Shown here: piece after piece, positions 19,167 to 24,738 of the stretch
Numbering within the stretch: position 1 is the stretch's first letter
Layout of the letters: each line of letters opens with the position of its first letter
Source of the DNA: Frankiaceae bacterium
GTDB lineage: Bacteria; Actinomycetota; Actinomycetes; JAFAQI01
Assembly: GCA_019239875.1 (NCBI GenBank)
Contig: JAFAZI010000097.1
Coordinates: forward strand, 1-36,654
Length of the DNA stretch: 36,654 nt
Direction of reading: 5' to 3'
Notes under the pieces: generated by a model
Database searches by the model: none
Told to the model about the DNA's origin: nothing
The model's input: only the letters and a program-made list of their open reading frames with translations
Program-made: the position numbers and the translations under genes

Positions 19167-21767
19167 TCAGGTTACGGAAGCGGTCCGCGCCGGGTCAAAC
19201 GGCGAATCCGCACCCGCTTCATCCGCCGCAGGCGCCGGATCGCTGTCCTTGGTCGCGGTTTCAGTGCTCTTGGTCGTCGTACGCCGCCGCTTCGGCTTCT
19301 CGGCCGGCGGTGCAGCGTCGGCGGCCTTGTCCTCGGCCGCGGGCGCAGGGGCGTCCTCGGCCGGCTTGTCACCCTCAGCCGACTCAGCCGCAGCCGGCAC
19401 GACCGCTGCCGTCGGCTCCGTGTCTGCTGTCGACTCGGTGTCCGCCGTGGGCTCAGCGTCTGCCGCCGACTCCGTGTCCGGCTGCGGCGGCTTCGCGGTG
19501 GCCGCGATCGCCGTCGGCTTGGGGGCGCGCACCTTCTTCGGGGGGCGCCTCGCGCTGACCGGATCGATCTCGAGGATCACCCCGCTGCCGTTGCACTCGG
19601 GGCAGGTGTGGCTGAACGATTCGAGCAGACCCTCACCGACGCGCTTGCGAGTCATCTGCACGAGGCCAAGCGAGGTGACCTCGGCCACCTGGTGCCGCGT
19701 CCGGTCGCGACCGAGACATTCGAGCAGCCGACGGAGCACGAGATCACGGTTGCTCTCGAGGACCATGTCGATGAAGTCGATGACGATGATGCCGCCGAGG
19801 TCGCGGAGCCGGAGCTGCCGCACGATCTCCTCCGCCGCCTCGAGGTTGTTCTTCGTGACGGTTTCCTCGAGGTTGCCGCCCTTACCGGTGAACTTGCCGG
19901 TGTTGACGTCGACGACAACCATCGCCTCGGTGCGGTCGATCACCAGGTAGCCGCCGCTCGGCAGCCAGACCTTGCGGTCAAGCGCCTTCGCGAGCTGCTC
20001 GTCGACCCGGTAGGCCTCGAAGACGTCCTCGGGCCCGGACCACTTCTTGGTCCGCTCGGCCAGGTCGGGAGCGACCCAGCCGACGTAGTTCTCGATCGTG
20101 TCCCACTCGTCGTCACCCTGCACCACCAGCGAGGTGAAGTCCTCGTTGAAGATGTCGCGGATCACGCGGATGACGAGGTCGGGCTCGCTGTAGATCAGGC
20201 TCGGCGCCGAGGCGGTCTTCGACTTCGCGTCGATGACCTCCCACTGCGCCTTCAGCCGGCTCAGGTCCTTCTCGAGAGCCTCTTCGGTTGCGCCTTCGGC
20301 AGCGGTGCGGATGATCACGCCGGCATCGTCGGGGGTGAGCCGCTTGAGGATGCCCTTCAACCGGGAGCGCTCGGTGTCGGGCAGCTTGCGACTGATCCCG
20401 GACAGCCGGCCGTCCGGCACGTAGACCATGTAGCGGCCGGGGAGGCTGACCTGGCTGGTGAGCCGGCCGCCCTTGTGGCCGATCGGGTCCTTCGTGACCT
20501 GAACGAGGACGGACTGGCCCGACTTCAGCGCCTGCTCGATGCGCGGCGGCTTTCCTTCCAGCGCGCTGGCGTCGTAGTTGACCTCGCCGGCGTACAGCAC
20601 TGCGTTGCGGCCGCGGCCGATGTCGACGAACGCCGCCTCCATGCTCGGCAGGACGTTCTGGACCTTGCCGAGATAGACGTTGCCGACCATCGACGCCTGG
20701 TCCTTGCGGGTGACGTAGTGCTCGACCAGCACGCCGTCCTCGAGCACCGCGATCTGCGTGCGCTCCTCGCCCTGGCGGACCACCATGACGCGGTCGACGG
20801 CTTCCCGGCGAGCCAGGAACTCGGCCTCGGTGATGATCGACGGGCGGCGGCGCTGGGTGTCGCGTCCGTCGCGGCGACGCTGCCGCTTCGCCTCGATGCG
20901 GGTCGAGCCCTTGACGCCGCGAACGCCGTCGTCGGCGGCCTGCTTGCGAGGTTCGCGGACGTGCACGACCGTGTTGGGCGGGTCGTCCGGGCCGAGCTCG
21001 GACTCACCGTCGCCCGTACCGGTACGCCGCCTGCGCCGCCTGCGCCGGCTACTCGCGCTCGTGCCGCCATCGTCTGCGGCCTCGTCGTCGGAGCCTTCGG
21101 CGGTGTCCCGGCCGGCGGCCTCATCGGGTGAACCCTCGCCATCGCTGCTGTCCGCGCCGGCGCCCTCGTCGGTGGCTGCTCCACCAGCTCCGCCGCCACG
21201 ACCACCTCGGCCACGGCGACCCCGCCGGCGGCGGCGCGGCGTGCCGTCGCCGGCCTCGCCCTCGCTGTCCCCGTCGTCCGGGCTGGTCGCTGCGGCTGCG
21301 ACGTCCTGGTCGCTGGTGTCGGACGCCGCCTCCTCAGCGGTCTCTTTCGCCGGGGTTCGCTTGCGGGGCGCCAGCTCGGCGGGTGGTGGCTGGAAGAGCA
21401 GCGCGGTCGTCGGCGCAGTCTTCTTGGCGCCGCTCTTGGTGCCGGAGTCGACCTCGGCGTCGGTGGTCGAGCTCGCCGTCTTTTTCGCGCGAGACCGCTT
21501 CGCCGGGGCCTTGGCGGCTTTCTCCGTGCCACCGGCGTCGGCCTTGGTGGGGGCGTCGTCACCGGATGTCTCGGCCTTGGCGTCGGTCGCGGCCGGCGGC
21601 GTCGATGACGCTGCGGTCGGCGCGCTCTACTCTGCGCTCGACTCCGACGGGGCCGGCGGGCCGGCGGGCCGGCTCACGGTCCGGCGGCGACTTGCGACCT
21701 TCTTGGGTGCGGCGTCCGATCCGGACGGCGCGTCGTTGGATGTGGTGGTTGGCTCGTCGTCGAGCAC
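19167..21767 (-). CDS. rne: Ribonuclease E/G, interrupted by an in-frame TAG in its N-terminal extension
   Basis: The main RNA-decay and rRNA-processing endonuclease. The GTG start at 21767 (MLDDEPTTTS...) has GAGGAGAA upstream. The frame runs to TGA 19167-19169 but has a TAG at codon 47 (21627-21629). Downstream of it the frame stays open and looks like family sequence: Ala/Lys-rich, LLFQPPP, an Arg8 run, then DDPPNTVVHVREPRK. After that come the S1 domain (GNVYLGKVQNVLPSMEAAFV), the catalytic Asp regions VVVDVNTGKF and IIVIDFIDM, and the Zn-link CPEC. If TAG terminates, the only later ATG/GTG/TTG in frame before the catalytic core is GTG 20966, giving 599 residues with the whole core. A sequencing error, a real nonsense mutation or readthrough are all possible. 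The C-terminal tail is low-complexity. Confidence 0.88.
19411..19482 (-). repeat. Four 18-bp tandem units in the rne C-terminal tail
   Basis: Four imperfect 18-bp units (19411-19428, 19429-19446, 19447-19464, 19465-19482) encode hexapeptides close to ADTE(S/P)T in the acidic, disordered tail of RNase E/G. This probably reflects in-frame repeat expansion, and copy number may vary between strains. Confidence 0.65.
21627..21629 (-). other. In-frame amber codon within rne
   Basis: Plus-strand CTA is TAG on the coding strand, in the same phase as both the GTG start at 21767 and the catalytic core. It falls between SESSAE and SAPTAASS, in a disordered segment. One base change from CAG, GAG or AAG would create it. 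Confidence 0.85.
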
Positions 21768-21908: not shown

Positions 21909-22703
21909 CTACGGCGACACCGCGGAGTCCGAACGACGTGAGCCATGAAGCGGGTCGGTCAGTCGTTGCGCATCCTCCGGCGACGTCGTGTCGATCAGCC
22001 CTTGCGCCAGCCGCGTCACCAATGGGGTGACGGGCGTCGTCAGTGCGCCAATCATTCGCAACGCCGTCAAGATGTCGTCGGGTCGGACAGCGGGTGTGGC
22101 GTGCTGCACGACCAAGTCCATTCTCGCACATTCGGCCGCCGGGTCGGGACCATTCGCGCTGGTCAGCGCCACGTTCGCGGTCACGAGCGCCGCCCGGACG
22201 TCCACGGTGCGGGTGCCATCCTTGGTCGCTCGCTCGACGGGGGCCGTGGTCTGTGCGAGCAGGAGATCGAGCGCTTTCTGAGCGGCCGCAACGGATACAC
22301 CCGGCAGCTCGATCGACCAACGTGAGGCCTCGATCAGCTCGGCGAGGGTCTTGGCGGGGCTGTCTGCGGCGTCCACGACGTCGACGATGTCGATGCCGGG
22401 CGGCAGCGCGGCGTCGAGCGTGTCGCGGACCTGGTCGGGGTCGGTCGCCTCGGCCAGCCCGATCTCGAGGTATTCGGCCTCCGACGCCGTACCGGTCGGC
22501 GCCGCCCCGGCGTAGGACACCTTCGGGTGGGGGCTGAACCCCGCGCTGTAGGCGATCGGGAGCCGTGCCCGACGGATCGCGCGCTCGAAGACCCGCGCGA
22601 AGTCCCGGTGACTGGTGAACCGCAGCCGACCGCGCTTGGCGTAGCGGATCCGCAGCTTCTGGACCACGGGAGGCGGCGGCGGCCCCTCCGGCTGCCGACT
22701 CAC
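21909..22703 (-). CDS. TIGR03936 / DUF2344 radical-SAM-linked protein
   Basis: The protein has 264 residues from GTG 22703, which follows a G-rich stretch that could serve as ribosome-binding site. The N-terminus RIRYAKRGRLRFTSHRDFAR and FERAIRRARLPIAYSAGFSPHPKVSYA is characteristic of DUF2344 (TIGR03936). The family always accompanies, or is fused to, the TIGR03960 radical-SAM protein, which is the next gene upstream here. Its activity is not known. The C-terminal 90 residues are less conserved. A 70-bp inverted repeat fills the gap to its partner gene. Confidence 0.9.
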   Translation of the reverse strand: MSRQPEGPPPPPVVQKLRIRYAKRGRLRFTSHRDFARVFERAIRRARLPIAYSAGFSPHPKVSYAGAAPTGTASEAEYLEIGLAEATDPDQVRDTLDAALPPGIDIVDVVDAADSPAKTLAELIEASRWSIELPGVSVAAAQKALDLLLAQTTAPVERATKDGTRTVDVRAALVTANVALTSANGPDPAAECARMDLVVQHATPAVRPDDILTALRMIGALTTPVTPLVTRLAQGLIDTTSPEDAQRLTDPLHGSRRSDSAVSP

Positions 22704-22716
22704 GCCACCCCCCAGT

Positions 22717-22786
22717 TATCGCCCAACCGTCTCGAATCGTTGGTTTCAGACCCTTCAAACCAACGATTCGAGACGGTTGGGCGATA
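22717..22786. repeat. Perfect 30-bp inverted repeat with 10-bp spacer
   Basis: Bases 22717-22746 and 22757-22786 are exact reverse complements over 30 bp, with a 10-bp spacer (CAGACCCTTC). Each arm also has CCAAC and GTTGG at its ends (22723-22727/22739-22743 and 22760-22764/22776-22780), so each arm can alternatively form its own weak hairpin. The repeat fills most of the 97-bp gap between two - strand genes, starting 14 nt after the TIGR03960 stop and ending 13 nt before the DUF2344 GTG. It could be a terminator/attenuator, an RNase III site, or a REP/MITE-like dispersed repeat. No second copy was noticed in the window. Confidence 0.95.
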
Positions 22787-22800
22787 GGTCGGGGGCGGCA

Positions 22801-24738
22801 TCAGAGGGGGGTGAGCGGCAACAACGGACGGCCGGTGGGTCCGACCTGGATCTCGGTGCCCATCGACGGGCACACGCCGCAGTCGTAACACGGCGTCCAG
22901 CGGCAGTCCTCCACCTCGCCGCCACCATCAACCGACGCGGCGATCGCCTCCTGCCAGTCCTCCCAGAGCCACTCCTTGTCCAGCCCGGAGTCCAGGTGGT
23001 CCCACGGCAGGACCTCGTTCTGCTGCCGCTCGCGGGTCGTGTACCAGTCGAGCGAGACCGGCTGCGCCTCGAAGACGTCGCGGCACGCGGCTTCCCACCG
23101 CTCGTAGGAGAAGTACTCGCTCCACCCGTCGAAGCGCTGGCCCTGCTCCCACACCCGCCGGATCACGGGAGCGACCCGGCGGTCGCCTCGTGAAAGCAGT
23201 CCTTCGATGATCGAGGGCCGGCCGTCGTGATAGCGGACGCCGATCGATCGGCCGAACTCCCGGTCGTGCGTGACGGCGCCTTTGAGCGCACGCAACCGCC
23301 GGTCGACGGTCTCGTGATCCAGCTGCGCGGCCCACTGGAACGGCGTGTGCGGCTTCGGCACGAAGCCGCCGATCGAGATCGTGCACCGGATGTCCTTGCG
23401 GCCGGCCGCCTCCCGTCCGGTCGCGATGACGCGCCGCGCCATTCCGGCGATCGCGAGGACGTCCTCGTCGGTCTCGGTCGGCAGACCGCACATGAAGTAC
23501 AGCTTCACCTGGCGCCAGCCGTTGCCGTAGGCCGTCGCGACGGTCTGGATCAGGTCGTCCTCGGTGACCATCTTGTTGATCACCTTGCGCATCCGCTCGC
23601 TGCCACCCTCGGGGGCGAAGGTCAGGCCGGTACGGCGACCGTTGCGCGACAGCTCGTTGGCCAGGGTGATGTTGAAGGCATCGACGCGGGTCGAGGGCAG
23701 CGACAGCGACACCTGCTCGCCGTCGTACCGGTCGGCGAGACCCTTTGCGATCTCGTGGATCTCGCTGTGGTCGGCGGAGGACAACGACAGCAGGCCGACC
23801 TCCTCGAACCCGGTCGCCGCGATGCCGCGTTGCACCATCTCGCCGACCGTGGTGATCGATCGCTCGCGGACCGGTCGCGTGATCATGCCCGCCTGGCAGA
23901 ACCGGCAGCCGCGGGTGCAGCCGCGAAAGATCTCGACGCTGTACCGCTCGTGCACCGTCTCGGCGAGCGGCACGAGCGGCTGCTTCGGGTACGGCCACTC
24001 GTCGAGGTCCATGACGGTGTGCTTGGTGACCCGCCACGGCACGCCGGACTGGTTCGGTACGACGCGCTGGATCCGGCCGTCCGGGAGGTAGGCCACGTCG
24101 TAGAACCGGGGCACGTACACGACACCGCTCGTCGCCAGCGCCAGCAGCAAGCCGTCCCGGCCCCCTGGCCGGCCCTCGGCCTTCCACGTGCGGACCAGGT
24201 CGGTCACGGCAAGGGCAGCCTGTTCGCCGTCGCCGACGACCGCCCCGTCGATGAACTCCGCGACCGGCTCGGGGTTGAACGCGGCGTGCCCACCCGCGAT
24301 CACTACCGGGTCGCCGTCGGCGCGTTCCGCTGCGGTGATCGGGATGTCGGCGAGATCGAGCGCGGTCAGCAGGTTCGTATAACCGAGCTCCGTCGCGAAG
24401 GAGACCCCGAAGATGTCAAAGTCCCCCACCGGGCGATGGGCGTCGACAGTGAACTGCGGGATGCCGTGCTCGCGCATCAGGGCCTCGAGGTCCGGCCACA
24501 CGCTGTAGGTGCGCTCGGCGAGCACGTCCGGCTGCTCGTTGAGCACCTCGTAGAGAATCTGAACACCCTGGTTCGGCAGCCCGACCTCGTAGGCGTCGGG
24601 ATACATCAGGGCCCATCGCACGGCCGCCGAGTCCCAGGCCTTGACCTGCGCGTGCAGCTCGCCGCCGACGTACTGAACCGGCTTGCGCACCTGCGGCAGC
24701 AACGGCTCGAGCCGGGGGAAGACGCTCTCGACGGTCAC
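22801..24738 (-). CDS. TIGR03960-family B12-binding-like radical SAM protein
   Basis: The 645-residue protein has an N-terminal cobalamin-binding-like domain (WALMYPDAYEVGLPNQGVQI, VIAGGHAAFNPEPVAEFIDG) and a radical-SAM core with CTRGCRFC (Cys274, Cys278, Cys281) ligating the [4Fe-4S] cluster. KLYFMCGLPTETDEDV is a typical SAM-domain stretch, and a C-terminal CYDCGVCPSMG may bind a second cluster. The reaction is unknown. It is conserved beside rne and its DUF2344 partner in actinobacteria. GTG 24738 has TAGCCT 8 nt upstream and no Shine-Dalgarno, suggesting a leaderless message. Confidence 0.93.
   Translation of the reverse strand: MTVESVFPRLEPLLPQVRKPVQYVGGELHAQVKAWDSAAVRWALMYPDAYEVGLPNQGVQILYEVLNEQPDVLAERTYSVWPDLEALMREHGIPQFTVDAHRPVGDFDIFGVSFATELGYTNLLTALDLADIPITAAERADGDPVVIAGGHAAFNPEPVAEFIDGAVVGDGEQAALAVTDLVRTWKAEGRPGGRDGLLLALATSGVVYVPRFYDVAYLPDGRIQRVVPNQSGVPWRVTKHTVMDLDEWPYPKQPLVPLAETVHERYSVEIFRGCTRGCRFCQAGMITRPVRERSITTVGEMVQRGIAATGFEEVGLLSLSSADHSEIHEIAKGLADRYDGEQVSLSLPSTRVDAFNITLANELSRNGRRTGLTFAPEGGSERMRKVINKMVTEDDLIQTVATAYGNGWRQVKLYFMCGLPTETDEDVLAIAGMARRVIATGREAAGRKDIRCTISIGGFVPKPHTPFQWAAQLDHETVDRRLRALKGAVTHDREFGRSIGVRYHDGRPSIIEGLLSRGDRRVAPVIRRVWEQGQRFDGWSEYFSYERWEAACRDVFEAQPVSLDWYTTRERQQNEVLPWDHLDSGLDKEWLWEDWQEAIAASVDGGGEVEDCRWTPCYDCGVCPSMGTEIQVGPTGRPLLPLTPL

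Follow-up and report, generated by a model that had tools for sequence, protein, structure and literature searches.

Dispersed gene-end hairpins with conserved arms and variable loops in a Frankiaceae genome

Our sequence comparisons revealed that the long hairpin at positions 22717-22786 of the window (i.e., the whole 36,654-nt stretch of Frankiaceae DNA analyzed here) is a copy of a dispersed repeat family unique to its lineage, hereafter family 1. We regard it as moderately probable that this family represents a gene-end boundary element, REPIN/BIME-like but with no RAYT found, whose arms would be kept by sequence-specific recognition. A second hairpin family of the same layout, with arms of unrelated sequence, was found in related genera (family 2, described below).

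The hairpin is the top inverted repeat of the window. Its left arm (22717-22746), which contains the family-conserved core TCGCCCAACCGTCTCGAATCGTTGGTT, and its right arm (22757-22786) are exact reverse complements of 30 bp separated by a loop of 10 nt (CAGACCCTTC; 22747-22756), as the preliminary description had stated; arms, loop, and outer flanks are all given without strand. When mismatches were allowed, the arms extended to 48 nt with 88% pairing (22699-22804), in that the C-rich outer left flank (22699-22716) is a partial complement of the G-rich outer right flank (22787-22804). More specifically, the folding energies were -76.9 kcal/mol for the plus strand and -85.5 kcal/mol for the minus strand, relative to shuffled means of -30 and -35 kcal/mol, respectively (z ~ -14). 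Searching the window against Rfam yielded no match at the hairpin, the sole match being a tRNA elsewhere in the window. The alternative folds proposed for single arms on the basis of their CCAAC/GTTGG ends proved to be weak (-2.4 and -3.1 kcal/mol; z of -0.35 and -0.81, respectively). Likewise, the 48-bp arms gave a first impression of a locus-specific lower stem, which we rejected: the outer flanks pair with each other no better than do those of swapped copies (p = 0.77), and thus lie outside the conserved element. As for the uncommonly clean stem noted at the outset, the exact 30-bp arms stand, but such perfection is ordinary within the family, in which 5 of 45 copies have perfect 27-bp stems versus 5.2 expected if both arms vary independently.

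In the draft genome that hosts the window (G000; 4,145,868 bases in 206 contigs), a search with a 121-bp segment spanning the hairpin returned 80 matches, corresponding to 40 places on both strands, and the 16-nt arm core gave 98 matches at ≤2 mismatches, nearly all of them in plus/minus pairs. Family 1 comprises 45 close copies (≤2 mismatches per 16-nt arm core) and about nine diverged members, ~54 in total. A covariance model built on the 45 hairpins recovered the same 45 together with the diverged members, in some of which a C-G pair of the stem is replaced by a compensated G-C. The preliminary description had offered a miniature mobile repeat as an alternative, and had named many genomic copies of the 30-bp arm as the outcome to be expected of a REP/MITE-like family; the copy number obtained here agrees with that proposal. 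We also observed a sibling subfamily in which GCGTC/GACGC replaces CCGTC/GACGG, again in compensated form, at loci L072 (1474-1537), L074 (~1413), L075 (~1925), and L070 (2473-2536). Each family 1 copy consists of two inverted arms of ~28 bp (consensus TCGCCCAACCGTCTCGAATCGTTGGTT) around a 10-nt loop, with the arm-core start-to-start distance being 34, and the loop length fixed, in 43 of the 45 copies. All 45 loops are different in sequence, while retaining a faint shared origin around GAGACGTCTC. The outer arm ends are sharp, and the flanks are unrelated between copies.

To delimit the distribution of family 1, we compared it with progressively larger sets of genomes. No copy was found in 59 relatives by blastn or, with a pattern search, in 393 further genomes belonging to the class, and the covariance model gave weak matches (E ~0.02) in two relatives only. 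An exact match to the 21-bp arm was likewise missing from 84,980 named genomes, as was the 19-bp arm from IMG/VR, and plasmid and phage records contained none.

We then assessed gene contexts in the 5-kb surroundings of the copies by means of a simple home-made codon-usage gene caller, so that the following counts are approximate. None of the 45 copies lies inside a gene; 20 are flanked by convergent, 24 by tandem, and 1 by divergent genes (L018, between histidine kinase and sigma factor genes). Among the other gene pairs in the same neighborhoods, which served as background, 11 were convergent, 129 tandem, and 32 divergent (Fisher p = 7e-9 for convergent and 0.004 for divergent pairs). The tandem copies lie at a median of 10.5 nt past the upstream stop codon and 81 nt ahead of the next start. 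The host genes have no common function, and include those for fumarase, uracil phosphoribosyltransferase (UPRTase), semialdehyde dehydrogenase, CorA, ilvD, ribF, cysS, and peptidases, among others.

At the locus in the window, the hairpin occupies a 97-bp gap between two genes on the minus strand, and the gene order described beforehand was confirmed. The upstream gene encodes a TIGR03960 B12-binding radical SAM protein (22801-24738), whose stop lies 16 nt away from the core of the hairpin and whose named matches, at up to 79% identity, place the genome among Actinomycetes. It is followed by the gene for a TIGR03936/DUF2344 radical-SAM-associated protein (21909-22703; GTG start), the conserved N-terminus of which begins directly after the gap, and, further downstream, by the gene for a Rne/Rng family ribonuclease (RNase E/G; 19167-20966, minus strand). 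In genomes G003, G008, and G005, which belong to the same taxonomic family, the radical-SAM gene and its DUF2344 partner share a TGATG or TAGTG overlap, and the same gap in G001 and G004 contains other palindromic repeats, of the CGCATGG.CCAT.GGTGGGGC type. The window's genome retains TGATG at the radical-SAM stop (22799-22803, minus strand), i.e., the motif that forms the overlapping stop and start of both genes in G003 and G008, with the hairpin placed ahead of the conserved DUF2344 N-terminus. The presence of other repeats in the gap of relatives indicates that gene-end repeats are tolerated in this gap, or drawn to it, and that the hairpin is lineage-specific there.

The suggestion that the hairpin sets the expression ratio of its two neighbors is not borne out, as the same hairpin is found behind unrelated genes, and relatives that share the gene order lack it. 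Its absence from such relatives had been named beforehand as an argument against a regulatory role, and in them the two genes either overlap or are separated by other sequence. We reject a locus-specific regulator on the copy number and the unrelated host genes, and a role of the hairpin as a switch for its two adjacent genes is not supported. Since the hairpin parts two genes that overlap in relatives, it probably uncouples them a little, and a putative side effect on readthrough into DUF2344 and rne is possible.

We next compared the conservation of arms and loops across copies. Identity between copies is 94% for arms, 38% for loops, and 35% for outer flanks. Consistently, site diversity is 0.61 for loops (near random) versus 0.07 for arms, in which 14 of 27 sites are invariant across 90 arms. 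At least three loop mismatches separate 98% of copy pairs, whereas 4% would be expected had the loops evolved neutrally at the rate of the arms, indicating that the arms are held back or the loops renewed. Pairing adds little to this constraint: arm mismatch is 1.71 within a hairpin versus 1.90 between hairpins (p = 0.03), which, together with the 5 versus 5.2 perfect stems, indicates that the arm sequence itself is constrained. Compensatory changes were found in 8 of 31 pairs, only modestly above shuffles. These comparisons point to arms that are recognized as sequence, rather than to an RNA stem preserved through pairing, and a loop of set length but free sequence would fit two inverted sites held at a fixed distance. 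In addition, six pairs of loops are identical at 9 of 10 positions (0.8 expected), suggesting that some family 1 copies descend from one another. Given this copying among loci, shared ancestry could account for part of the arm conservation.

That the arms are frozen while the loops are saturated suggests that something reads the arms. The most likely candidate reader would be a protein that binds DNA or hairpins and engages the pair of inverted sites at their fixed spacing. In the boundary reading that we favor, the element would mark the 3' ends of genes, where it would either stop or trim transcripts, or relieve supercoils or collisions of neighboring, often convergent, genes. This role is proposed by likeness to the roles put forward for REP/BIME elements; for REPs and REPINs these are supercoiling, termination, and mRNA stabilization. 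If the element does end transcripts, it would be relevant to U-tract-free transcription termination in G+C-rich bacteria.

An ordinary intrinsic (Rho-independent) terminator, or an RNase III site, would require a strong RNA hairpin only, and a very stable hairpin directly behind stops and between convergent genes fits that requirement. However, a T-tract is lacking: the 10 nt past the stem are G/A-rich (T, 15%), with ≥5 T in only 1 of 64 tails, and family 1 hairpins are thus not canonical intrinsic terminators. Moreover, the stem sequence is conserved far beyond the needs of pairing while the loop is free, and G.U is not in excess over A.C on the transcribed strands of tandem copies (15:12), so that we consider this explanation distinctly improbable. 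In Neisseria and Pasteurellaceae, inverted pairs of the DNA uptake signals DUS and USS function as terminators. A parallel to DUS/USS pairs has been noted for other genomes (PMC2267715), and family 1 is like them in having conserved arms, a free loop, and a position behind genes. Unlike those signals, its arms are much longer and never solo, and its copies number only ~54, making an uptake-type signal pair hardly credible.

Two classes of mobile repeat come closer to family 1. A selfish MITE, functionless and moved by an unseen DDE-type transposase, would be found at gene ends because insertions are tolerated there. Family 1 resembles bacterial MITEs of the RUP, NEMIS/Correia, and ERIC type in being short, non-coding, gene-adjacent, and present in many copies with long terminal inverted repeats. 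The dispersal, sharp ends, and unrelated flanks of its copies, its absence from relatives, the few near-identical loops at separate loci, and two identical hairpins ~0.6 kb apart in G008 are all consistent with such an origin. In contrast to those elements, family 1 has an interior of only 10 nt that is saturated while the ends are conserved (arms 94% identical), and we detected no target-site duplication at its copies (best z of 2.3 among 81 tests). In the 206 contigs of the draft genome, we found no solo arm at ≤1 mismatch and no full-length element or parent insertion sequence with these ends, the arms occurring only in short pairs. Given also the strong bias of tandem copies to ~10 nt from stop codons, we judge the MITE explanation unlikely.

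A true REPIN, i.e., a REP doublet mobilized by a RAYT (Y1 tyrosine transposase), accounts for other features. Most catalogued REP-like hairpins come from Proteobacteria, Cyanobacteria, and some other phyla. REPINs and REP doublets have inverted conserved ends around a spacer that varies in sequence but hardly in length, and form lineage-specific families (PMC3116915, PMC3733652), and REPs lie mostly between convergent and co-oriented genes, adjoining the 3' end of the upstream gene (PMC3733652). Family 1 likewise consists of inverted pairs that are dispersed outside genes, have a spacer constant in length but not in sequence, and lie behind genes in convergent or co-oriented settings. It is therefore REPIN/BIME-like in anatomy and position, yet departs from REPINs at three points. 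A search for PF01797 (Y1_Tnp/RAYT) gave no match in the G000 draft (206 contigs) at E up to 1, while 10 of 14 control genomes were positive, and none was found in G003, G004, G005, G008, or G179. Single arms, ~28 bp long and never solo, fold no better than shuffles and hence are not the palindromes expected of REP units. Finally, GTAG is absent from the consensus, in which a CGTC does occur inside the arm, although without an 8-9-bp stem beginning AT. The host, moreover, is an actinomycete, and the terms "actinobacteria," "Streptomyces," and "Frankia" are unmentioned in PMC3733652. A true REPIN is thus very unlikely, and the boundary element read through its arms remains our preferred explanation.

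Family 2 emerged from a scan of relatives for long hairpins, followed by pattern counts in G003, G004, G005, and G008. Its members read GATCTTGACGTT - genome-specific inner stem - AACGTCAAGATC, and a class-wide pattern search located further copies in G179 (12), G241 (7), and G032 (1). Spacing in the examined loci is 43 (54 in G005) and the centre is free. The outer 12 bp are common across genera. In contrast, similarity of the inner stem is 0.33-0.52 between genomes versus 0.99 within G004, 0.92 within G003, and 0.73 within G008, but only 0.41 within G005. Placement is convergent for 13 copies, tandem for 23, and divergent for 3. Families 1 and 2 are therefore alike in their fixed spacing, gene-end placement, and free centre, and this same layout indicates a design common to unrelated sequences and uniform within most genomes. 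Two unrelated families of the same layout thus occur in actinomycetes in which the expected transposase was not found. As a more speculative and rather doubtful extension, genomes of this actinomycete family might label the ends of their genes with a hairpin "barcode" that is specific to each genome and is read by a fast-evolving protein. The two arms would then be recognized as sequence at a fixed spacing, with copies alike within a genome and each genus having its own stem. If true, this would constitute a protein-dependent, U-tract-less system for transcript ends or chromosome boundaries, and the genome-specific stems make the putative arm reader testable.

Several further observations concern these repeats. 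Family 2 spans several actinomycete genera (examples at L271-L305 and L311-L317), and one copy occurs in the window's genome (L285). Neighboring pairs of family 2 hairpins were seen in G008 (L296; 2509-2564 and 3095-3150) and in G003 (L294; 2494-2549 and 3569-3624), and their identical arms and loops within different outer flanks suggest local copying of the element. The end of ilvD carries a family 2 hairpin in G003 (L295; 965-2639) and a family 1 hairpin in the window's genome (L028; 2545-4254), which may be due to chance; we did not retain shared gene ends of the two families as evidence, because ilvD is the one strong case and ~0.5 would be expected by chance according to our own estimate. 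Lastly, a palindromic unit, CCACCGATGGGCCATGCG, forms clusters at ~31-bp steps within 99- and 153-bp repeats in the window's genome (L306, 2281-2804; L307, 2494-2724), and is more abundant in G004 (107 matches) and G001 (47 matches).
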